DNA from: Kaistia dalseonensis
Lineage (GTDB): Bacteria > Pseudomonadota > Alphaproteobacteria > Rhizobiales > Kaistiaceae
Direction: 5' to 3'
Length of the DNA stretch: 64,000 nt
Assembly: GCF_030814715.1 (NCBI RefSeq)
Contig: NZ_JAUSVO010000001.1
Span: 124,001 to 188,000, forward strand
Shown: in pieces, positions 17,872 through 63,142 of the stretch
How positions within the stretch are numbered: the first letter of the stretch is position 1
How the letters are laid out: each line of letters starts with the position of its first letter
Notes under the pieces: model-generated
Told to the model about the DNA's origin: nothing
The model's input: only the letters and a program-made list of their open reading frames with translations
The model's database searches: none
Made by a program: the position numbers and the translations under genes

Positions 17872-19602
17872 CTATACTGTCTTGCCGAGTTCGCATGAAT
17901 TTCTCGACCAGAGTTTGACCGTCCTGCCATTCGGCGTGCGTACGGACTCGATCACCGAGAAACCCAGGTTCTTCGCCGCTGTTTCGAGAGCTTCGAAATC
18001 AACGGCTGGGCGGATATCACCGATAGTTCCGTCTGCCGACAACAGCAGGCAACTCGGCGAAGATTGAAGCCAAGCTTCATAGTCCGAAATGGTGCCTGGA
18101 AACGGTGGTGATCCATCGACAGGGAGACGTACCGGCGACGACATGGCGTTCGCCAGTGAGATCGTATTGCCGTTCAGCAGGTAGGTCCGAAATCCCATCT
18201 TGACGACAGAGTCGGGAGGGTTCCTGTCGTGAGCTAAGGCGTACAATTCGGTGCTGAGCTGAAACCATTGATGAGAATCGTCCGTCGATATGGCCGTCGG
18301 AATATCCGGGTTCCCGAGTTCGCTCTCCAGGCTGTACCAATGAATCGGTGCTCTCGAGGAGAAGGCGGGTATTGTTCCTATTAGGGGTAATGTCGTGCGG
18401 GAGTTCTCGTAATAGGGAGGCTCCATGCTGAACAAAGGATGCACGCTAACCAGGCAAGCAACCGCAATGGCCGCAGCTCCGATAAATCTCAATGGTTCAG
18501 TGCTCAGCAAAAGCCGAAATCCATACAGTGCGATGATAGCAAGAGCGGGAAACAAGGGGGCTGAGAAACCCGTGCCTTTGTTGGACGAGCTCATCAAGGC
18601 AAATATTGAGAAGGTCGAAAATATCAAAACAGGCGATACTAGCGAAGCCGTTACCCTATTCAACGTTAATATTATACCATTTTTTAGACTGAATATAAGT
18701 ACATAGATCAGCAGGGAGGCGATGCCGAATATGATCAATAATGTATCTGTTAATTGGGTGTAATATATAAAGAGTTGTATCGTTGCATAAGCGCTTTGCC
18801 AGAGCCCCGCAGGACCATAGCTGGTAGCTTTATCGCCATAGCCATATTGGAGCAGATAGTCGAGCACCGGTCTCCAGCTGAAGAATAGCCAGCTTGCGGC
18901 GGTGATGAGCGCGACGACGCCGGCCAGCAGTGTGTTGGCAAGGGCCTTGGCGATAGCGTCGCGACGCGTGAACACGCACCAGAGCACCGCCAGGGCGATC
19001 GCCGGATAGAAGGAGATCGTGACTGTTCGCGACAGCGCCATCATGCCGACGCACAAACCCAGCAGGATGGCCCAAGGCGTTGAGCGCAACCTGTCCGAAT
19101 AGAGCAGACACATCAGCGCGGCCGTTGTGAAGAAGGTGGCGGCCATCGCAAAATTGAATGTGCGACTATAGTCGACGATGATCGGCGACGCGGCGACGAT
19201 GAGCGAGGCCAGCAGGGCGAACCAGTCGCCGGCTATTCGTCGGGCGAGGAAGTAGGTCACGATCACAGATGCCCCGCCGAACAATACGGGCACAAGAAAG
19301 CCGACCGAGAGTTGTGGCCCAAAGATAATGAAGAGAATCGACGCGGTCGCAGTGGTTACGGGCGCCTGGATTGTCGGTAGCAGGACTTCGTTGAGCCAGC
19401 CGCGCAGACCACCGCTCATCCAGGCATGATAATCATACAAGGCAATCGAGAAGTATCCAGCTTCATCGATGTCGACCGCCTGATTCAGCCGGTAGCGGGC
19501 TATCCACGATGCATTCACGAGGACAAAGGAGACAGCAATGATCGCCATGCCCACCATGGGAGCCAGGCGAGTTATTTTGTTCGTGTTCGCTGTTCCGCTC
19601 AT
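17872..19602 (-). CDS. GT39-like multi-pass membrane protein
   Basis: This 576-aa protein resembles dolichyl/undecaprenyl-phosphate-mannose-type glycosyltransferases (PMT/ArnT, GT-C fold). The first helix is followed by the acidic pair in VDIDEAGYFS (about residues 43-52), where GT-C enzymes keep a catalytic Asp. About ten to twelve hydrophobic helices follow to residue 385, then a soluble C-terminal domain of about 190 residues. The donor and acceptor are unknown. Composition is mosaic: the half encoding the N-terminus (18850-19600) looks like the host, while 18420-18800 is clearly AT-rich. It sits between gmk and rsmA, which are normally neighbours, so it is probably acquired. Confidence 0.72.
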   Translation of the reverse strand: MSGTANTNKITRLAPMVGMAIIAVSFVLVNASWIARYRLNQAVDIDEAGYFSIALYDYHAWMSGGLRGWLNEVLLPTIQAPVTTATASILFIIFGPQLSVGFLVPVLFGGASVIVTYFLARRIAGDWFALLASLIVAASPIIVDYSRTFNFAMAATFFTTAALMCLLYSDRLRSTPWAILLGLCVGMMALSRTVTISFYPAIALAVLWCVFTRRDAIAKALANTLLAGVVALITAASWLFFSWRPVLDYLLQYGYGDKATSYGPAGLWQSAYATIQLFIYYTQLTDTLLIIFGIASLLIYVLIFSLKNGIILTLNRVTASLVSPVLIFSTFSIFALMSSSNKGTGFSAPLFPALAIIALYGFRLLLSTEPLRFIGAAAIAVACLVSVHPLFSMEPPYYENSRTTLPLIGTIPAFSSRAPIHWYSLESELGNPDIPTAISTDDSHQWFQLSTELYALAHDRNPPDSVVKMGFRTYLLNGNTISLANAMSSPVRLPVDGSPPFPGTISDYEAWLQSSPSCLLLSADGTIGDIRPAVDFEALETAAKNLGFSVIESVRTPNGRTVKLWSRNSCELGKTV

Positions 19603-55721: not shown

Positions 55722-56591
55722 CTATTCCTCGCCGCGAATCCACCAGACGCGGCGGCCGGCCTTGTCGGTCTCGCCCAGGATCGGGGCGAGGCCGGTCAGA
55801 AGGTCGTCGATCGTCACGTCGAGCTGCCAGGGCGGATTGACCAGGATCAGCCCCGTGCCGTTGAAGCGATCCGGCGTGGCGCGCTCGCGGATCCAGAGCT
55901 CGGCCGCCAGGATCTTGGCGATCCCGGTATCGAACAGCCGCTTGTGGAAATTCTTCACCGCGCCGATATCCTTGATCGGATACCAGAGCGCGTAGGTGCC
56001 GGTCGGCCAGCGGCGATAGGCCTTCTCCAGTCCCTCGACCATCGTCTTGAATTCGTCCGGCTGCTCGAAGGGCGGATCGATCAGCACGAGGCCGCGCCGC
56101 TCCTTGGGCGGCACGAAGGAACCGAGCGCCAGCCAGCCGTCGAGCTCGATCGCCTTGACCTGGATGTCGCCGGCGAAGGCTTCCGCCAGCGTCTTGTAAT
56201 CCTCCGGATGCAGTTCCACCGCCGTCATGCGGTCGATGCCGCGCAGCGAATGGCGGATGATCCAGGGCGAGCCCGGATAGGTCTCGAACGTGCCCGGGCG
56301 GTTGGCCGCCGCGATCGCCGCGAAATAGGGCGCCAGCGCCTCGGCGAGCTTGCGCGTCAGCGGCGTCGCCGGCTTGCCTTCGCTGTTCATCAGCCGGCCG
56401 ATGCCGTTCTTCCATTCGCCGGTCTTCGCCGCGAGCGGGCCGTTCAGGTCGTATGACCCGACCCCCGCATGCGTGTCGATGACACGGAAGGCCTTGTCCT
56501 TGGCCTTCATGTGCTGGATCAGCAGCGCGAGGATGGCGTGCTTGACGACATCCGCGTAATTGCCGGCGTGGTAGGCGTGACGGTAATTCAT
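55722..56591 (-). CDS. rlmJ: 23S rRNA (adenine-2030-N6)-methyltransferase
   Basis: This 289-aa methyltransferase begins MNYRHAYHAGNYADVVKH, the diagnostic RlmJ N-terminus, with a SAM-binding segment VIDTHAGVGSYDL and the catalytic DPPFE in VLIDPPFEQPDEF. It modifies 23S rRNA before large-subunit assembly. ATG 56591 is the conserved start; the longer frame upstream reads into a repeat-rich region without similarity. Confidence 0.95.
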   Translation of the reverse strand: MNYRHAYHAGNYADVVKHAILALLIQHMKAKDKAFRVIDTHAGVGSYDLNGPLAAKTGEWKNGIGRLMNSEGKPATPLTRKLAEALAPYFAAIAAANRPGTFETYPGSPWIIRHSLRGIDRMTAVELHPEDYKTLAEAFAGDIQVKAIELDGWLALGSFVPPKERRGLVLIDPPFEQPDEFKTMVEGLEKAYRRWPTGTYALWYPIKDIGAVKNFHKRLFDTGIAKILAAELWIRERATPDRFNGTGLILVNPPWQLDVTIDDLLTGLAPILGETDKAGRRVWWIRGEE

Positions 56592-57359
56592 GCCTGCTCT
56601 TACCAGAGGACACCCCCGGGAGAAAGCCACGGGATCGCGGCGATCCGCACGGCCGCCGCATCCACGCGTCGCGCCCGCATCAGCCGCCACTCCGCCGCGA
56701 GCGCCGCGGCCATGGCGGCGAATATCACGACCGCTGGGCGACCGGCAGCCGCGCCATGCGGGCGACATTGACAGGCCTCGTCATACGGGCGCGCCCGCGC
56801 GGGCCTTGCGGCCGGCGGCGCGGGTTGTCCCGGCGCGGGCCGGGATGGCCCGGCGATGGCCCGGGGGAGGCGGATGCGCGAGAAGCACCGCTTGGGGGTA
56901 TTTCCGTATATGGCGCTTATCGCGCATCCGCCGCGGCGGTTTCTGTCCTGCGATCGGCCCTGGCGGGGGGGAGACGGCTCGACGCGCGCAGCGCGAAGGC
57001 ACTCGGACGTCCGTGCTCCTGGCCGGGGTTGATCGCGGCGGAGGAACGGACCGATCTCCAACCCTGGTGCGCGGCACGATGGATGCCGCTCACGACGGAT
57101 CATAGTGTCCGCTGGCATGATCGCAGGCCTCGCGGAGACGAAGGACCGGTTTCCCCCGCCTGCACGCGCCGCTCCCTTCGGACGCATCAGGCAAGGACCG
57201 GATCCAGGCCCGCCCCCGGCGCGTCACGGGATGAAGGGAGCATGCCGGAAAGGGGAGGGATATGTCAAGGAAATTATTCCTATGTCGAGGCCCATGCACT
57301 GGTGGACGCCAATCGAAGGACGGCGCGGCCCGCTCCCCGCACCAGTATCCCTCTCCAGT
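56592..57359. other. gene-free GC-rich stretch before repeat cluster
   Basis: This 768-bp stretch contains long open frames on both strands, but they have Arg/Pro/Ala-biased translations without domains, start signals or similarity that I recognise, as expected in very GC-rich noncoding DNA. Besides an inverted repeat at 56869-56932, nothing was identified. A decayed gene cannot be excluded around 57240-57330, where composition is locally more balanced. Confidence 0.5.
56869..56932. repeat. 64-bp inverted-repeat element
   Basis: GGCGGATGCGCGA (56869-56881) pairs perfectly with TCGCGCATCCGCC (56920-56932); after one mismatch AAGC/GCTT extends the stem. The centre contains GGGGGTATTTCCGTATATGG, far less GC-biased than its surroundings. 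It looks like a member of a repeated family, but only one copy is visible here. Confidence 0.6.
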
Positions 57360-57476
57360 GCCGTCATCCCCGCGCAAGCGGGGACCCATTCAGCCGGAGC
57401 ATTGGGAAGGACAGCGGCCCGGCATCACGGCTGGATGGATCCCGGGTCTCCGCTACGCTCCGCCCGGGATGACGGC
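57360..57476. repeat. 117-bp palindromic repeat A, copy 1
   Basis: Ends GCCGTCATCCC and GGGATGACGGC are perfectly inverted; inside, CCCCGC and GCGGGG make a second hairpin near the left end. Copy 2 at 57913-58029 has the same length with about ten differences. Its minus-strand translation MGPRLRGDDG is a well-known false protein from this repeat type. Confidence 0.85.
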
Positions 57477-57505
57477 CTGTGGCCGGGTTTGGCGGTTCAT
57501 CCGAA

Positions 57506-57614
57506 CCGTCATGGCCGGGCCTGTCCCGGCCATCCACGCCTTGCTGTTACCTGCTCAGGCGCATCACGGTCGCAAGCAAGACGTGGATGCCCGCAATGAA
57601 TGCGGGCATGACGG
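57506..57614. repeat. palindromic repeat C
   Basis: Ends CCGTCATG (57506 on) and CATGACGG (to 57614) are inverted. Subterminal hairpins GGCCGGG/CCCGGCC and GCCCGCA/TGCGGGC lie inside each end. Same general design as repeat A but a different core. Confidence 0.65.
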
Positions 57615-57654
57615 CTTTGATGTTGGACTGCCCATGACGCCCCACACTCCGCTG

Positions 57655-57831
57655 AACCCGCCCCTTGCGGGCGGGTCAAAACCGCGAGGCGGTTTTGGGG
57701 CGGGGGCGGGTTGCAGGGGCCGGATACCGGCTCTTCAGAACGCACCGAAAGCAAGAACGCCTCGGCTTCGCCAAGGCTAACCCCGCCCCGAAAACGCGGG
57801 GCGCTTTCGACCCGCCCGCAAGGGGCGGGTT
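57655..57831. repeat. repeat B, two copies in opposite orientation
   Basis: A 23-bp sequence at 57655-57677 is exactly repeated in inverted orientation at 57809-57831. Each copy adjoins a run of the type TCAAAACCGC-(G/A)AGGCGGTTTT-GGGGCGGGG (57677-57706) or its degenerate complement (57781-57808). Together they could form a large hairpin of 177 bp. Confidence 0.75.
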
Positions 57832-57912
57832 AAGGGGAGCTACGCCCTGCCGCTTCTGCCATCCTCTCGACCTGGCGCGGCCCCTTTCCAGCGCCGTCGT
57901 TGGCCCTCCAGC

Positions 57913-58029
57913 GCCGTCATCCCCGCGAAAGCGGGGACCCATTCAGCCGGAGCATTGGGAAGAGCAGGCGTCCGGCATCACGGCTGCATGGGTCCCGGGT
58001 CTCGGCTGCGCTCCGCCCGGGATGACGGC
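57913..58029. repeat. 117-bp palindromic repeat A, copy 2
   Basis: Same ends, length and orientation as copy 1 at 57360; differences are concentrated in the middle (about 57963-57972), which suggests independent mutation or a conversion tract between copies. Confidence 0.85.
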
Positions 58030-58116
58030 GTTCGGGGAGGGCGCTCTCCGTCCCCGAGGCCGAGCCCACGGCACGCGCCCGACAAGCCGCACCGTCAACG
58101 CCCCAAGCTCGGCCCA

Positions 58117-58168
58117 AACCCTCCCCCCGAGGGAGGGTCAAAACCGCAAGGCGGTTTTGGGGAGGGGG
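58117..58168. repeat. repeat B, third copy
   Basis: AACCCTCCCCCCGAGGGAGGGTC followed by AAAACCGCAAGGCGGTTTT and GGGGAGGGGG: the same plan as 57655-57712 with CTC/GAG in place of the CG-rich arm bases. Confidence 0.7.
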
Positions 58169-58227
58169 CACGTTGTCGAGGCCCGGCCTCCGCCGTCTCC
58201 CCGTCCCGCCGACGCCCATACCAAACT

Positions 58228-58260
58228 CTGGCATTGCCGGGCTCGACCCGGCAATGCCAG
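58228..58260. repeat. 33-bp near-perfect palindrome D
   Basis: CTGGCATTGCCGGG (58228-58241) and CCCGGCAATGCCAG (58247-58260) form a 14-bp stem with a 5-base loop CTCGA. It is the last repeat before the AIPR gene, about 100 bp upstream of its start, and might limit transcription entering from the repeat cluster. Confidence 0.7.
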
Positions 58261-58361
58261 TGCTGAGCGTCGAGTCGGCGGCCATTTGGTCGATCTAGCG
58301 AACCGGGCGACCTGCGGCTATGGTCATGCCAACGCGTCTTCATCAAATAAAGAGCCCCTAG

Positions 58362-60140
58362 ATGAACCCTGTTATTCGTGCTCAGTTACGTGACTTCGCT
58401 AAGGCAAATTCCATTACAGCTTACTCACCCGAAAAACAGTTCGAGATTTACAGCATATTTTCAATAATGAGTGGCTTGCTCGGGGAAAACATCGACGCGT
58501 ACGATGTTCATCTAGAAGGTGATGAATTTGGTGTTGATGGTATTACTGTAGTAATACAGGGTGAGGCCGTTCAGACGCGCGCGGAAGCGGAGGAAAAGCT
58601 TGGTGCAATTCAGAACGCATCTGTCGAATTCATTTTCTTTCAATCAAAGACGAGTACAAGTTTTGACTATGGTGAAATTTCGAAGTTTTTCGATGCGATA
58701 CTTGGATTCTTTAAAGGGGATCTTGGAGGTGAGAGTGATCAAGTTGATGATCTAATTGGTGCGATGGATGCTGTATATGAAAATGGCGTGGGGAAACGCA
58801 ATCCGAAGCTGAGTTGCTACTATGTGGCGACTGGAAACTATGAGGAGCCCGTTAGGATTGAAAAACTGCGCGCGAATTTCCGGGGGCAACTTGAGGAGTT
58901 GAACATCTTCGATGCGAAGACGATCACTATCGAGATGGTTGGGGCGCGTAATCTGCAACAGTGGTACCGAGCGGCAACTTCCGCCGTGGAGGTCGAAATC
59001 GACTTTCCGCGGAATGTAGTCATGCCCAGTAACGGGCATGTCGAGGAAGCTTATATCGGCTACATTGATGCCGCAAATTTGCTAAAACTTTATATATCGA
59101 AAGATGCTGACAACAAGGTTGTTGGCATAAATCGGGCCGTATTTTTTGATAACATTCGTGATTATGACGCTAAATCGAAGATAAATCGGGCAATAAAAGA
59201 CAGTGTTCGTGTGGGTGGCGGCGCGGAGTTCGTCTTTAGAAATAACGGAATTACGGTGGTTTCGAAGAATATCGATCGAACCGGCGATAGATTTCGTCTT
59301 GAGGACTTTCAGATTGTAAATGGATGCCAAACGAGCAATGTCATTTTCGATCTCGTCTATGGCGATCAAGGAGCGGAGGGATCTGGTGATCAGAGTTTAG
59401 TTGCTTCGATCCAGGTTCCATTTCGACTTATTGGATCAAGGGACGATGAATTCGTGTCGTCAATTATCGTCGGTACCAATAGACAAAACCCAGTACGGGA
59501 TGAGCAGTTTTGGGCGTTGCGTCCATTCATGAAGAGTTTTGAGGAGTATTGCAGGAGCCTAGATTCAGAGGAGATTATATATTTCGAGAGGCGAGACAAC
59601 CAGTATCGTAATCAGGCAATAGAGCGAACCCGTGTAATGCAACCGTCAGTATTGATGAAAGCGGTTGCGGCTTGTTTGCTGTTTCAGCCACAAAGGGCCG
59701 CGCGAGATTATAGGGGTATACTATCTGAATATGAAAATATTATATTTCTTGATGATCAAGATGTTAGAATATATCATGCCGTGGCATATTTATACTATCG
59801 TCTTGAGTTTTTGTGGCGGAACCAGCGCATCGAGAGTAGTTACAAGACATTTAGGTACTATATATTGGCGGGTATTGGCCTCAAATTGACTAATTCGACC
59901 AATGTGTTTTCCATGAAGAAAGGAAAACTAACGGCTGTGGCTGAGTCGCTAATTGAGACTTGCAAGGATGAAGAAGTTCTGAAGAAGGCTGTTGAGGAAG
60001 TCGTTGGTATTGTGCATGAGCGATTGAAGGCGACAGGAGTCACAGGGCAAGAGAGAATTCGTGATGCGATTAGGTCTGAAGGGTTTGCGTCTGCATTTCG
60101 TGAGAAATATGCGCATCCAGGTGCGTCGGTAAAGAAATAG
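58362..60140 (+). CDS. AIPR-family phage abortive-infection protein
   Basis: This 592-aa protein matches the AIPR (abortive infection phage resistance) family through FRNNGITVVS (292-301), IVNGCQTSNVIF (318-329), TNRQNPV (372-378) and YFERRDNQY (407-415). The N-terminal third has GVDGI (Asp 59) and FFQSK (Gln 94, Lys 96), compatible with the D...(E/Q)xK core of a PD-(D/E)XK nuclease. The gene is far more AT-rich than all neighbours, with host-unlike codons (many AAT, ATA, TTA), so it was acquired by transfer. No partner gene, methyltransferase or antitoxin is adjacent; it may act alone. ATG 58362 follows AAAGAGCC. It lies directly downstream of a 1-kb repeat cluster. Confidence 0.85.
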   Translation: MNPVIRAQLRDFAKANSITAYSPEKQFEIYSIFSIMSGLLGENIDAYDVHLEGDEFGVDGITVVIQGEAVQTRAEAEEKLGAIQNASVEFIFFQSKTSTSFDYGEISKFFDAILGFFKGDLGGESDQVDDLIGAMDAVYENGVGKRNPKLSCYYVATGNYEEPVRIEKLRANFRGQLEELNIFDAKTITIEMVGARNLQQWYRAATSAVEVEIDFPRNVVMPSNGHVEEAYIGYIDAANLLKLYISKDADNKVVGINRAVFFDNIRDYDAKSKINRAIKDSVRVGGGAEFVFRNNGITVVSKNIDRTGDRFRLEDFQIVNGCQTSNVIFDLVYGDQGAEGSGDQSLVASIQVPFRLIGSRDDEFVSSIIVGTNRQNPVRDEQFWALRPFMKSFEEYCRSLDSEEIIYFERRDNQYRNQAIERTRVMQPSVLMKAVAACLLFQPQRAARDYRGILSEYENIIFLDDQDVRIYHAVAYLYYRLEFLWRNQRIESSYKTFRYYILAGIGLKLTNSTNVFSMKKGKLTAVAESLIETCKDEEVLKKAVEEVVGIVHERLKATGVTGQERIRDAIRSEGFASAFREKYAHPGASVKK

Positions 60141-60342
60141 ACCCGTCATTTGCTGTACGGATGTGCGTGGACGCGCGTTCTATTCGATAGAATAGTGAAC
60201 GAGGTCCAGCTGGCGGCTTGTATCCTCTCCAGTGAAGGATCGAGGCTGTACGAATCGACGGTGATCGGTCGACGTGTCCCTGGCTCCTCCATCTCTTGGC
60301 CAACTCATGCTATCCTCCACCCATCATCCGGAGGCCGCCGCC

Positions 60343-60828
60343 ATGCCCCCAGACCCGTCACCCCCACACATCCCCGGCCCGGTTCGGGCTGATCAGGATC
60401 GGTTTGGCGCGTCGTTTCCCTTTCTGAACGGCCGGTTTGATTGCAAGATTTCGGCGCTGGATACGGCAGGCGGGATGTGTGCCTTCGATACGCTGCGCTT
60501 TGAGCGTGGCGGGCCGCCGCTGCATATCCATCATGATCAGGACGAGTGGTTCTTCGTGCGCGAGGGCGAGTTCCTGTTCCAGGTCGGGACGGAGCGGTTT
60601 CGGCTCGGGCCGGGCGACAGCATTCTGGGGCCGCGCGGCGTGCCGCACGCCTTCGCCAATTGGAGCCCGACGGGGCGGCTCATGGTGCTGTTCCAGCCCG
60701 CAGGCCTGATGGAGGCGTTCTTCCGGGCCGGCAGCGCGATCGGCAAGGCGATGACGCCGGAGCGCTTCGCGACGCTCTCGCGCGAGCACGGCATGGAGGT
60801 CGTCGGCCCGCCGCTCGTGATCGGCTGA
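60343..60828 (+). CDS. cupin-domain protein
   Basis: This 161-aa protein has both cupin motifs: GPPLHIHHDQDEWFFVREG (His, His, Glu ligands) and GPGDSILGPRGVPHAF (third His). The single barrel covers about residues 30-130. Functions range from dioxygenase to isomerase and cannot be assigned. ATG 60343 follows GGAGG. Composition returns to that of the host here. Just upstream (60180-60195) a small hairpin CTATTC/GAATAG may mark the end of the AIPR transcript. Confidence 0.88.
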   Translation: MPPDPSPPHIPGPVRADQDRFGASFPFLNGRFDCKISALDTAGGMCAFDTLRFERGGPPLHIHHDQDEWFFVREGEFLFQVGTERFRLGPGDSILGPRGVPHAFANWSPTGRLMVLFQPAGLMEAFFRAGSAIGKAMTPERFATLSREHGMEVVGPPLVIG

Positions 60829-60903
60829 GGCGAGCGGGCGTCCACCCGCTGGCGCCGGGCGCCGGGGAGGGCGCTGGCGGAGGCGGCGGGAATGGTGCGG
60901 CTG

Positions 60904-60927
60904 GGCGGCGTGGCGCCGCCGGTTTTT
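60904..60927 (+). terminator. Rho-independent terminator after cupin gene
   Basis: GGCGGCG (60904-60910) and CGCCGCC (60914-60920) form a perfect 7-bp stem with a TGG loop; GG and then five T residues follow (60923-60927). It lies 75 bp after the cupin stop. Confidence 0.7.
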
Positions 60928-61051
60928 CCGCCCGCGCCGGGCGCTCGCGGCGCGCCTGTCGGGCCGGGTCGTCGCGCCGGCGCGCTTGCCCCCTCGACCG
61001 CGTCGCTGCATCGCGTCATAAACGGGCGATCAGCACGGAACCCCACGCCCC

Positions 61052-63142
61052 ATGAACGCTCCCGTCTATCCCCGCACCGGCTTTTCCGCCTGCCCGCATG
61101 ATTGCCCCTCCACCTGCGCGCTCGATGTCGAGCTCTTGGCGGAAAATCGGATCGGGCGCATTCGCGGGGCCAAGGACAATGATTACACCAAGGGCGTCAT
61201 CTGCGCGAAGGTCGCGCGCTATGCCGAGCGGATTCATAATCCGAACCGCCTGACGCAATCCCTTCGCCGCAAAGGCGAAAAGGGCTCCGGCGAATGGCAG
61301 GTGATCGATTTCGAGGATGCGCTGGACGAGATCGCGGAGGCCTTCCTGAAGGCCGAGGCGCGGCTCGGCGCCGAGACGGTCTGGCCCTATTATTACGCCG
61401 GCACGATGGGCCTCGTGCAGCGCGACGGCATCAACCGGCTGCGCCACGCGAAGAAATATTCCGGCTTTTACGGCACGATCTGCACCAATATGGCCTGGAC
61501 GGGCTATATCGCCGGAGCGGGCGCGATCGCCGGCTCCGATCCGCGCGAAATGGCGAAAGCGGACTGCGTCGTGATCTGGGGCACCAATGCGGTCGCGACC
61601 CAGGTCAACGTCATGACCCATGCGATCCAGGCGCGGAAGGATCGCGGCGCCAAGATCGTGGCGATCGACATCTACCAGAACGAGACGATGAAGCAGGCCG
61701 ATCTCGCGCTCTGTCTGAAGCCGGGCACCGACGGGGCGCTCGCCTGCGCCGTCATGCATGTGCTCTTCCGCGACGGGCTGGCGGACCGCGCCTATCTCGC
61801 CGCCTATACCGACGCGCCGGAAGCGCTCGAGGCGCATCTGGCGGAGAAGACGCCGGCATGGGCTGCGGCGATCACCGGGCTTTCGGTCGCGGAGATCGAG
61901 ACCTTTGCGCGGCTGGTCGGCACGACCAGGCGCACCTTCTTCCGGTTGGGCTACGGCTTTTCGCGGCAGCGGAACGGCGCGGTCGCGATGCACGCCGCGC
62001 TCTCCATTCCCGCCGTTTCGGGCGCCTGGCAATATGAGGGCGGTGGCGCGTTTCATTCCAATAGCGGCATCTTCCATCTCGACAAGACCGCGATCGAGGG
62101 GCTGGACCTGCTCGATCCCACCGTGCGCCAGCTCGACCAGTCGCGCACCGGGCCGGTGCTGACGGGCGATGCCGACGCGCTGAAGGGCGGGCCGCCGGTG
62201 ACGGCGATGATCGTGCAGAACACCAATCCGGTGACGGTCTGCCCCGACCAGACGCTGGTGAAGCGCGGCTTCGCGCGCGACGATCTCTTCGTCGCCGTGC
62301 ACGAGCAGATCATGACCGATACGGCGAAGATGGCCGATATCGTGCTGCCGGCGACGATGTTCCTGGAGCATGACGACATCTACAAGGGCGGCGGCCACCA
62401 ATATCTGATCCTGGGGCCGAAGCTGGTCGAGCCGCCCGAGGGCTGCCGCACCAATCATCAGGTGATCGCGGGCCTGGCGCGCCGGCTCGGCCTCGATCAT
62501 CCGGGCTTCGCCATGAACGAGCGCGAGCATATCGACGCCATGCTGCAGCGCTCCGGCTGGGGCACGCTGGCGGATCTCGAAGAAAAGCGCTGGATCGATT
62601 GCCAGAGCGATTTCGAGACCGCGCATTTCCTGAACGGTTTTGGCCATCCGGACCGGAAATTCCATTTCCGCGTCGACTGGGCCTCGGTCAATAACGAGAA
62701 TTACGGCCCGGTCGGCCCCGTCGCCGACATGCCGACGCTGCCGGATCACTGGGCGGCGGCGATCGAAGCGGCCGATGACGCGCACCCCTTCCGCCTCGCG
62801 ACCTCGCCGGCGCGGCAGTTCCTCAATTCCTCCTTCAACGAGACGCCGAGCTCGATCGGCCGCGAGGGACGGCCGGAATTGATGATCCATCCCGAGGACG
62901 CCGCTTCGCTCGGCATCGCGGCCGGCGATCTGGTGGTGATCGGCAATGCGCGCGGCGAGGTCCGCGTGCATGCGCGGCTCTTCGAAGGGCTGAAGCGCGG
63001 CGTGGTGATCTCCGAAGGGCTCTGGCCGAACAGCGCCTTCGTCGGCGGCAACGGCATCAACACGCTGACCGGCGCCGACCCCGTCGCCCCCTTCGGCGGC
63101 GCGGCGGTGCATGACAGCAAGGTCTGGGTCAAGGCGGTTTAG
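61052..63142 (+). CDS. molybdopterin oxidoreductase (DMSO reductase family)
   Basis: This 696-aa enzyme has an N-terminal 4Fe-4S site C-x3-C-x3-C (Cys 14, 18, 22) with the fourth Cys at 51, followed by the Mo-bis-MGD domains. TICTNMAW places Cys 144 where family members have the Mo ligand. Later motifs include VIWGTNAVATQVN, KMADIVLPATMFLEHDD and the C-terminal dinucleotide-binding barrel (LRLATSPARQFLNSSF-like, ending HDSKVWV). There is no Tat signal, so it is cytoplasmic. No electron-transfer subunit gene is next to it. The substrate is unknown. It depends on molybdopterin made with moaD and moaE of this window. Confidence 0.92.
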   Translation: MNAPVYPRTGFSACPHDCPSTCALDVELLAENRIGRIRGAKDNDYTKGVICAKVARYAERIHNPNRLTQSLRRKGEKGSGEWQVIDFEDALDEIAEAFLKAEARLGAETVWPYYYAGTMGLVQRDGINRLRHAKKYSGFYGTICTNMAWTGYIAGAGAIAGSDPREMAKADCVVIWGTNAVATQVNVMTHAIQARKDRGAKIVAIDIYQNETMKQADLALCLKPGTDGALACAVMHVLFRDGLADRAYLAAYTDAPEALEAHLAEKTPAWAAAITGLSVAEIETFARLVGTTRRTFFRLGYGFSRQRNGAVAMHAALSIPAVSGAWQYEGGGAFHSNSGIFHLDKTAIEGLDLLDPTVRQLDQSRTGPVLTGDADALKGGPPVTAMIVQNTNPVTVCPDQTLVKRGFARDDLFVAVHEQIMTDTAKMADIVLPATMFLEHDDIYKGGGHQYLILGPKLVEPPEGCRTNHQVIAGLARRLGLDHPGFAMNEREHIDAMLQRSGWGTLADLEEKRWIDCQSDFETAHFLNGFGHPDRKFHFRVDWASVNNENYGPVGPVADMPTLPDHWAAAIEAADDAHPFRLATSPARQFLNSSFNETPSSIGREGRPELMIHPEDAASLGIAAGDLVVIGNARGEVRVHARLFEGLKRGVVISEGLWPNSAFVGGNGINTLTGADPVAPFGGAAVHDSKVWVKAV

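Follow-up and report, generated by a model that had tools for sequence, protein, structure and literature searches.

The window analysed here, a stretch of 64,000 nucleotides from Kaistia dalseonensis (contig NZ_JAUSVO010000001.1, positions 124,001 to 188,000), carries a solitary gene of the AIPR/AbiU family, which occupies 58362–60140 on the forward strand and encodes a protein of 592 amino acid residues. Our reading, to which we assign a probability of about 0.68, is that we have here a one-gene anti-phage factor of this family which moves horizontally, with a PD-(D/E)XK nuclease domain at the N-terminus of its product. AIPR/AbiU proteins are counted as phage defence and their mode of action is poorly known. 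The putative active site is named here residue by residue, in a domain for which a Pfam scan gave no family, and a direct laboratory test becomes possible.

The open reading frame (ORF) starts with ATG, has no internal stop and is intact. Its product matches the Pfam AIPR family (PF10592) over residues 261–520 (59142–59921; all features of the gene lie on the forward strand) with 126.6 bits against a cut-off of 25 (2e-36), and the PADLOC AbiU profile (PDLC02357) over nearly its full length, residues 4–583, with 332.7 bits (1.4e-99). With the NCBIfam equivalog MzaE it scores 20 bits, against a cut-off of 1050. The family alignment used throughout comprises 36 rows, the window protein included, and the AbiU profile matches all of them. 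The motifs that the original prediction had picked out as marks of an AIPR protein, FRNNGIT, IVNGCQTSN and TNRQNPV, are present at residues 292–298, 318–326 and 372–378, and the Pfam match in the middle of the protein agrees with that assignment. Within them, NNGIT (294–298; 59241–59255) keeps N294, N295, G296 and T298 in every row, NGCQT (320–324; 59319–59333) is found in all 36, and TNRQN (372–376; 59475–59489) keeps N373 and Q375 throughout. The gene gives the sole AIPR match in the K. dalseonensis genome. Across the phylum AIPR/AbiU genes are widespread, 51 of 398 genomes matching the family model in a count that takes the fused and the long types (see below) together.

Residues 1–225 (58362–59036) form a predicted Mrr-like PD-(D/E)XK nuclease domain, an assignment that draws on a structural model, on invariant residues and on profile alignments by way of solitary AIPRs. 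AlphaFold2 models, built on the 36 aligned rows, have a predicted local distance difference test score of 87.0 for the whole protein and 86.6 for residues 1–225, the latter with a predicted template modelling score of 0.82. In the N-terminal model, helix 23–39 is followed by strands 60–65 and 68–70, helix 73–82, strand 88–95, helix 103–118 and then further helices and strands; as modelled, this is a mixed α/β domain whose elements follow the order of the PD-(D/E)XK core, with one helix inserted. Motifs I to III fall in order on the right elements. Motif I is E28 (58443–58445) in helix 23–39, a glutamate in all 35 readable rows that aligns with the glutamate of Mrr; motif II is D59 of GVDGI (58536–58538), just ahead of strand 60–65; and motif III is Q94-S95-K96 of FFQSK (58641–58649), with Q94 ending strand 88–95 and K96 immediately after it. 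At the start of helix 103–118, E105 (58674–58676) marks the motif IV position, where relatives without K96 have a lysine. T157-G158 (58830–58835) align with the TT motif of Mrr, T157 being conserved in 34 rows and G158 in all. The residues invariant in the domain over the 36 rows are D59, Q94, P148 and G158, and K96 is kept in 29; in 22 more distant rows, obtained afresh, D59 is present in 22, Q94 in 20 and E28 in 17. GVDGI and FFQSK had been taken, from their spacing, for PD-(D/E)XK motifs, and their order and conservation support that reading. Judged from model and alignment together, the first 225 or so residues constitute an α/β domain in which the PD-(D/E)XK motifs stand in order and are strongly conserved, and a nuclease fold with an intact active site is very likely.

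The profile link to known nucleases is transitive. Relatives were collected as 43 loci from genome contigs and 22 loci from viral contigs; from the former, together with a phylum sample, 32 N-termini of solitary AIPRs with short spacing between the aspartate and Q-x-K were chosen for carrying the motif. In hhalign these gave 74.2% against Mrr_cat (E 2.8e-5), and the window N-terminal family of 36 rows gave 97.8% against them (E 9e-13). Three controls gave 0.1–0.2%, the N-terminal family against DndB 0.3% and the AIPR core against Mrr 0.5%. Aligned directly with Mrr_cat, the window family falls in the motif register, with E28, D59, Q94-x-K96 and T157 in place. All ten loci with a VNGAQT core among the 43 from genome contigs have D62, Q79 and K81, and their N-termini score 85.5% against the window family (E 5.6e-6) and 18.1% against Mrr. 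A Pfam scan of the window protein found no family in the N-terminal domain, and the Pfam Mrr model gave no match. A Foldseek search with the N-terminal model returned 501 matches at E ≤ 10. Among the best 50 of the 501, FokI has the highest probability, 0.54, and eight chains, ranks 1 and 2 among them, belong to PD-(D/E)XK proteins: HamA (2), FokI (2), EcoO109I, Cap4 (2) and XPF. As a separate observation, a 566-residue open frame on another contig of the window's own genome (L164, G000:C6:304830–308156) matches Mrr_cat at 1.8e-10.

The lysine of motif III is either kept or moved. All seven rows without K96, which have D or E there, have lysine at position 105, and none of the 29 rows with K96 does, each of the 36 rows thus having exactly one lysine at the two positions. 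The original prediction had staked its case on conservation of Asp 59, Gln 94 and Lys 96: the first two are found in every row, whereas K96, taken literally, fails in the same seven rows, none of which is a close homologue; in close homologues it is kept. The exchange was tested on 24 fresh loci in two draws, the first taken around the family of G608, a genome showing the exchange. The N-terminus is readable in 22 (it is missing from L269 and L281; the core of L258 is the same as that of L018). Of these, 13 carry the lysine at 96 alone and nine at 105 alone, residue 96 of the nine being D, E or T. Over 57 rows combined, a count that leaves out L057 (N-terminus cut; D96, K105), L269 and L281, 42 have K96 only, 15 have K105 only, none has both and none has neither. 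On a tree of these 57 rows computed from the AIPR core only, N-terminal columns being excluded, at least four changes between K96 and K105 are forced by supported branches, and the best tree has six. In several PD-(D/E)XK families the lysine of motif III is described as having moved to the helix of motif IV, in one of them with a threonine left behind, and correlated replacement is counted as support for a PD-(D/E)XK prediction (PMC1913061). By the aligned residues, the K96/K105 exchange is such a migration from motif III to motif IV. Because loss of K96 is paired with K105 in these rows, it strengthens the nuclease reading.

In other AIPR loci the nuclease appears to be encoded next door. Thirteen of the 43 genome-contig loci encode AIPRs of 508–870 residues as read, without a D...Q-x-K pair at the aligned place (the contig truncates L025, and in L040 a stray LQFK precedes the aspartate place). 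Z1 and DUF4420 genes lie directly upstream in all 13, and 12 also have a GHKL ATPase gene; none of the three occurs in the other 52 loci of the genome-contig and viral-contig sets, as judged with search models that were built from these loci (DUF4420 from eight of the 13) and match them by construction. DUF4420 is a putative PD-(D/E)XK family according to Pfam. Three adjoining genes were scanned and all match it, and D179, E188 and K190 are invariant in the eight genes aligned. A test sample of 55 loci, drawn phylum-wide and many of them with short flanks, was judged by pattern, doubtful rows by eye. Thirty have the aspartate and Q-x-K in the N-terminus, and none of these has DUF4420 or Z1 within about 5 kb on either side, one (L221) having a GHKL match nearby. 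Sixteen are long and without the pair; 13 of them have Z1, DUF4420 and GHKL, and DUF4420 lies beside 14 (L252 has DUF4420 only, at a contig end, and L247 has GHKL only, its upstream side cut by the contig). The remainder are one locus with Q-x-D and a lysine at the 105 place (L202), three with Q-x-H or Q-x-Y, and five with unreadable N-termini (L208, L229, L236, L237 and L251), of which L236 adjoins DUF4420. Two loci deserve separate mention: L238 (G650:C2:11059–21763) has a long-type AIPR in a 693-residue frame, with no Z1, DUF4420 or GHKL detected nearby, and L241 (G088:C1:845017–855829) has a solitary AIPR in an 829-residue open frame, its D...Q-x-K beginning at about residue 344, so that the protein may have an additional region fused at its N-terminus.

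The long type forms a single clade of 28 rows, with support 100, in a tree computed for 105 rows, from which L030, L221, L223, L224 and the five rows with unreadable N-termini were excluded, and the split between fused and next-door nucleases is therefore a single event. It is an even question whether the AIPR core is a general module for sensing or switching, acting in every case on a PD-(D/E)XK nuclease, either fused to it or supplied by a neighbouring DUF4420 gene; the fused motif would then have been lost in MZA-like operons, and AbiU would be a one-protein activated nuclease.

The gene lies in a variable chromosomal segment (56605–60990, no strand assigned) between an rlmJ-like and a molybdopterin-oxidoreductase-like gene, names which, like diguanylate-cyclase-like and DsbA-like below, come from reading the ORFs. 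The segment was delimited by comparison with seven sister genomes, similarity to which ends at 56592–56604 and restarts at 60991–61072; in G006 and G013 just 58 and 60 bases separate the flanking matches, the spot being empty. The distance between the two flanking genes is 0.1–6.4 kb in seven of 13 sister genomes, and the other six have no close match to the molybdopterin-oxidoreductase-like gene or, in G007, have both genes on short contigs. The spot in G004 (L128, G004:C1:29800–36500) holds a Methyltransf_35 protein, a GHKL ATPase, a C5 DNA methylase and a Vsr endonuclease, an apparent restriction-type island. That in G005 (L129, G005:C2:1002000–1006700) holds an HTH_3 protein overlapping a weakly Gp49-like one (below cut-off), a possible toxin–antitoxin pair, together with an unknown protein of 227 residues. 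Both also contain diguanylate-cyclase-like and DsbA-like ORFs, the same two that fill the spot in G001 and G008, and the spot in G012 has only ORFs of up to 188 residues. An AIPR match at E ≤ 0.001 is found in seven of the 61 genomes of the genus, family and order, the window's own included; 11 of the 13 sister species have none at this threshold, and G010 and G012 have weak matches to some 130–140 residues of the core.

Base composition also sets the gene apart. As had been noticed from the sequence, it is AT-rich in a GC-rich chromosome: the bin 59001–60000 has a G+C fraction of 0.433, the minimum among the 64 one-kilobase bins of the window, followed by 0.521 at 18001–19000 and 0.542 at 58001–59000, with the remaining 61 bins at 0.590–0.724. 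Low G+C is common to relatives, the ORFs of L001, L002, L003, L006 and L008 having 0.410–0.500 in loci of 0.605–0.660. At the DNA level, five relatives whose proteins are 73–78% identical (L001, L002, L003, L045 and L046) resemble the window from the start codon (58362 or 58363) to a point within the gene, which is why we regard the mobile cassette as the gene alone. The remaining matches to these five are short pieces of an upstream repeat, in L003, distant from its gene. Among the five themselves only L045 and L046 are alike beyond the gene, for fewer than 100 bases; other similarity outside it amounts to 3–5 bases ahead of the start codon in certain pairs, plus two short matches at other places. 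Only the gene, then, is conserved as a unit. Against the same five, nonsynonymous divergence (dN) is 0.17–0.21 over the gene and 0.17–0.23 in residues 1–225; synonymous divergence (dS) could not be estimated for these pairs, so that there is no dN/dS ratio, and is read as saturated. With dS read as saturated at such dN, the gene appears to be under purifying selection.

Relatives of the gene are found in prophages, on plasmids and in a hotspot of phage defence. Matches occur in 56 of 72,556 plasmid records and in nine of 50,697 phage records. The copy in Fels-2 lies between the gpA-like gene and Q, adjoining Q, together with three other small genes; the gpA-like-to-Q interval of P2 phages is described as a hotspot of anti-phage systems (PMC9122126). 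Its DNA is present in seven of 5426 Escherichia coli genomes, and the two matches examined are both in the same phage interval, one of them annotated as frameshifted. In mycobacteriophage Thyatira the copy is one gene away from the integrase, with repressor genes beyond, and the Pfam families adjoining the viral-contig copies include terminase, portal, tail and CI-repressor.

The survey of neighbours proposed earlier for recurring partners likewise brought out these phage and hotspot contexts, and a conserved partner gene was rejected: among 190 neighbour ORFs from 41 loci, compared all against all by BLAST, no family occurs in more than three loci. Pfam scans of 122 of the 131 nearer neighbours (66 and 56 ORFs, leaving out one of L020 and the near-copies L064 and L066) gave no family in more than three, among the first 25 families listed. 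The neighbours of the window gene are the rlmJ-like gene, a cupin gene and the oxidoreductase-like gene. The cupin gene (60274–60828, downstream on the same strand) has its best sister-genome match at no more than 40% identity and elsewhere in the genome; as a partner it was rejected, there being no match in the 65 other AIPR loci. Upstream, the spacer contains a 124-nucleotide repeat in two copies 91% alike (57353–57476 and 57906–58029), with no third copy in the window. An Rfam scan of 56500–61100 matched no known RNA.

The mechanism that we propose is as follows. The N-terminal domain would cut nucleic acid, most likely DNA because the nearest profile is Mrr, and DNA is a probable substrate on that comparison. 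The AIPR core (residues 226–592, with NNGIT, NGCQT and TNxQN) would sense or switch, restraining the nuclease until a phage-specific signal arrives; this putative function is the weakest part of the proposal. Activation would then destroy phage DNA, and perhaps host DNA, and halt the infection. No methylase or antitoxin gene travels along, and self-protection would therefore be achieved by autoinhibition or by recognition of modified or phage-specific DNA. A role in phage defence is highly probable, and an abortive rather than a simply restrictive outcome is slightly favoured. That the gene works alone and cuts nucleic acid was put forward in the original prediction as inference, and we likewise infer it here.

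Among the alternatives, the one that survives best, though we consider it rather unlikely, is that the protein is a type IV, Mrr-like modification-dependent restriction enzyme, which would cut foreign or modified DNA with survival of the host and no abortive infection. Mrr is indeed the nearest profile, and a gene conserved alone, with no methylase or antitoxin gene, is as type IV enzymes would have it; on the other hand, the family is named after abortive infection (AbiU, AIPR), the AIPR core is not a known reader of DNA modification, and the protein has no known target. A nuclease that, once activated, cuts RNA or host tRNA instead of DNA is distinctly less probable. Some PD-(D/E)XK proteins act on RNA, and nothing in the present data fixes the substrate, but Mrr is the closest profile, and among the weak structural matches HamA, FokI and EcoO109I are DNA enzymes.

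Slightly less probable again is a reading in which the nuclease fold at the N-terminus has lost catalysis and serves to bind DNA, with the effector encoded elsewhere. The long AIPR clade, which is without its own D...Q-x-K and adjoins a separate PD-(D/E)XK gene (DUF4420), speaks for such an arrangement; solitary members, however, keep D59 and the lysine across phyla, K105 makes good the loss of K96, a compensation for which a dead domain would have no use, and no partner family is found in more than three of 41 loci, nor are the partners of the long clade. It is very improbable that the gene is a non-functional relic or serves a role other than defence, such as regulation: some relatives are broken, and at E ≤ 0.001 the 13 sister species give nothing in 11 cases and weak partial matches in two, but the frame is open, dN is 0.17–0.21 with dS beyond estimation, and relatives are set in prophages and the hotspot. 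Least probable, by a small margin, is that the N-terminal domain is a HEPN ribonuclease and the protein a HEPN-type RNA-cutting toxin: a HEPN domain is stated for the N-termini of AIPR proteins generally (PMC3506569), but no N-terminal column has R, or has H, in 20 or more of the 36 rows, any R-x4–6-H occurs in just eight of 36, the predicted fold is mixed α/β and not all-α, and no HEPN protein appears by title in the best 50 of the 501 Foldseek matches, so that the evidence opposes this assignment for the AIPR branch of the window, in which a conserved R-x4–6-H in an all-α domain was not found, and we reject it there.

Several observations weigh against our preferred reading of a mobile, single-gene anti-phage nuclease. 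The structural check suggested for the N-terminal region yielded a model with the PD-(D/E)XK core order, but Foldseek found no match at E ≤ 0.001 for either the full model or the N-terminal one. Directly against Mrr_cat the window N-terminal family reaches only 20.5–20.6% in hhalign (E 0.0011). Motif III has Gln in place of Asp or Glu (Gln is also found in Mrr), E28 is Q, A or L in five of the 22 fresh rows, and Q94 is S in two of them (L267 and L268). The lysine exchange provides four independent pairs, all of opposite direction, for which a sign test gives p 0.125, significance being unreachable with four. The family name AbiU is a PADLOC annotation, and the AIPR core aligns with DndB collinearly at only 5.2% in hhalign, which is not significant. 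Broken relatives (L005, L017, L055, L208, L261 and one E. coli copy) are several, and loss is therefore frequent. PADLOC matches among 66 neighbours of solitary relatives, the only neighbours on which it was run, include PbeA (3), mREase_IV (2), MzaA (1) and others, at most three per family, and in single cases a solitary AIPR may have a partner gene; the MzaA match, to one of the 66 neighbour ORFs of L001–L019, is at 4e-75. The solitary L212, L215 and L249 have Q-x-H or Q-x-Y in place of Q-x-K; a later lysine near the next helix, seen by eye, is perhaps a further displaced catalytic lysine.

In the literature searched AIPR proteins appear as abortive infection proteins with no mechanism given, as restriction–modification-associated, as an MZA-like part or as HEPN-containing, and in one type of system an AIPR gene is reported next to a methylase and a PD-(D/E)XK gene (PMC9523054). 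Neither a PD-(D/E)XK domain in AIPR/AbiU nor a relation to DUF4420 is named in the literature searched, which lacked most subscription papers and all preprints. A relation between AIPR and DndB is stated in PMC3506569. The motifs are collinear with those of DndB/DGQHR (Pfam PF14072), NGCQT of the AIPR core standing against DGQHR; hhalign, run with two sets of profiles, gave 5.2% in the collinear register and 4.8% in another, neither significant, so that we do not assign a DndB/ParB-like core. The same source equates AbiU1 of Lactococcus lactis with AIPR, and the likeness of the window protein to AbiU1 is by way of the PADLOC AbiU profile. The lactococcal AbiU comprises two genes, abiU1 and abiU2 (PMC3985639), whereas in six members of the window type conservation of the DNA does not extend past the gene, and no neighbour family occurs in more than three of 41 loci, in comparisons for which abiU2 itself did not serve as a query.

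Close comparisons are also with Mrr and with the MZA-type operons. Like the Mrr-type nucleases (Pfam PF04471), the window domain has a glutamate in a helix, an aspartate, Q-x-K and then TT in the same order and register; unlike them, it is fused to an AIPR core, has a longer spacing from D59 to Q94 and gives no Pfam Mrr match. The MZA-type operons, made up of a GHKL ATPase, Z1, DUF4420 and an AIPR (MzaE), share a homologous AIPR core with the window protein (hhalign 99.9%). Their AIPRs are mostly longer, lack the N-terminal D...Q-x-K and lie beside DUF4420, whereas the window gene is solitary, with neither Z1 nor DUF4420 as a neighbour, and is not part of such an operon. It is the rule of a nuclease fused or a nuclease next door that ties solitary AbiU to the MZA-type operons.

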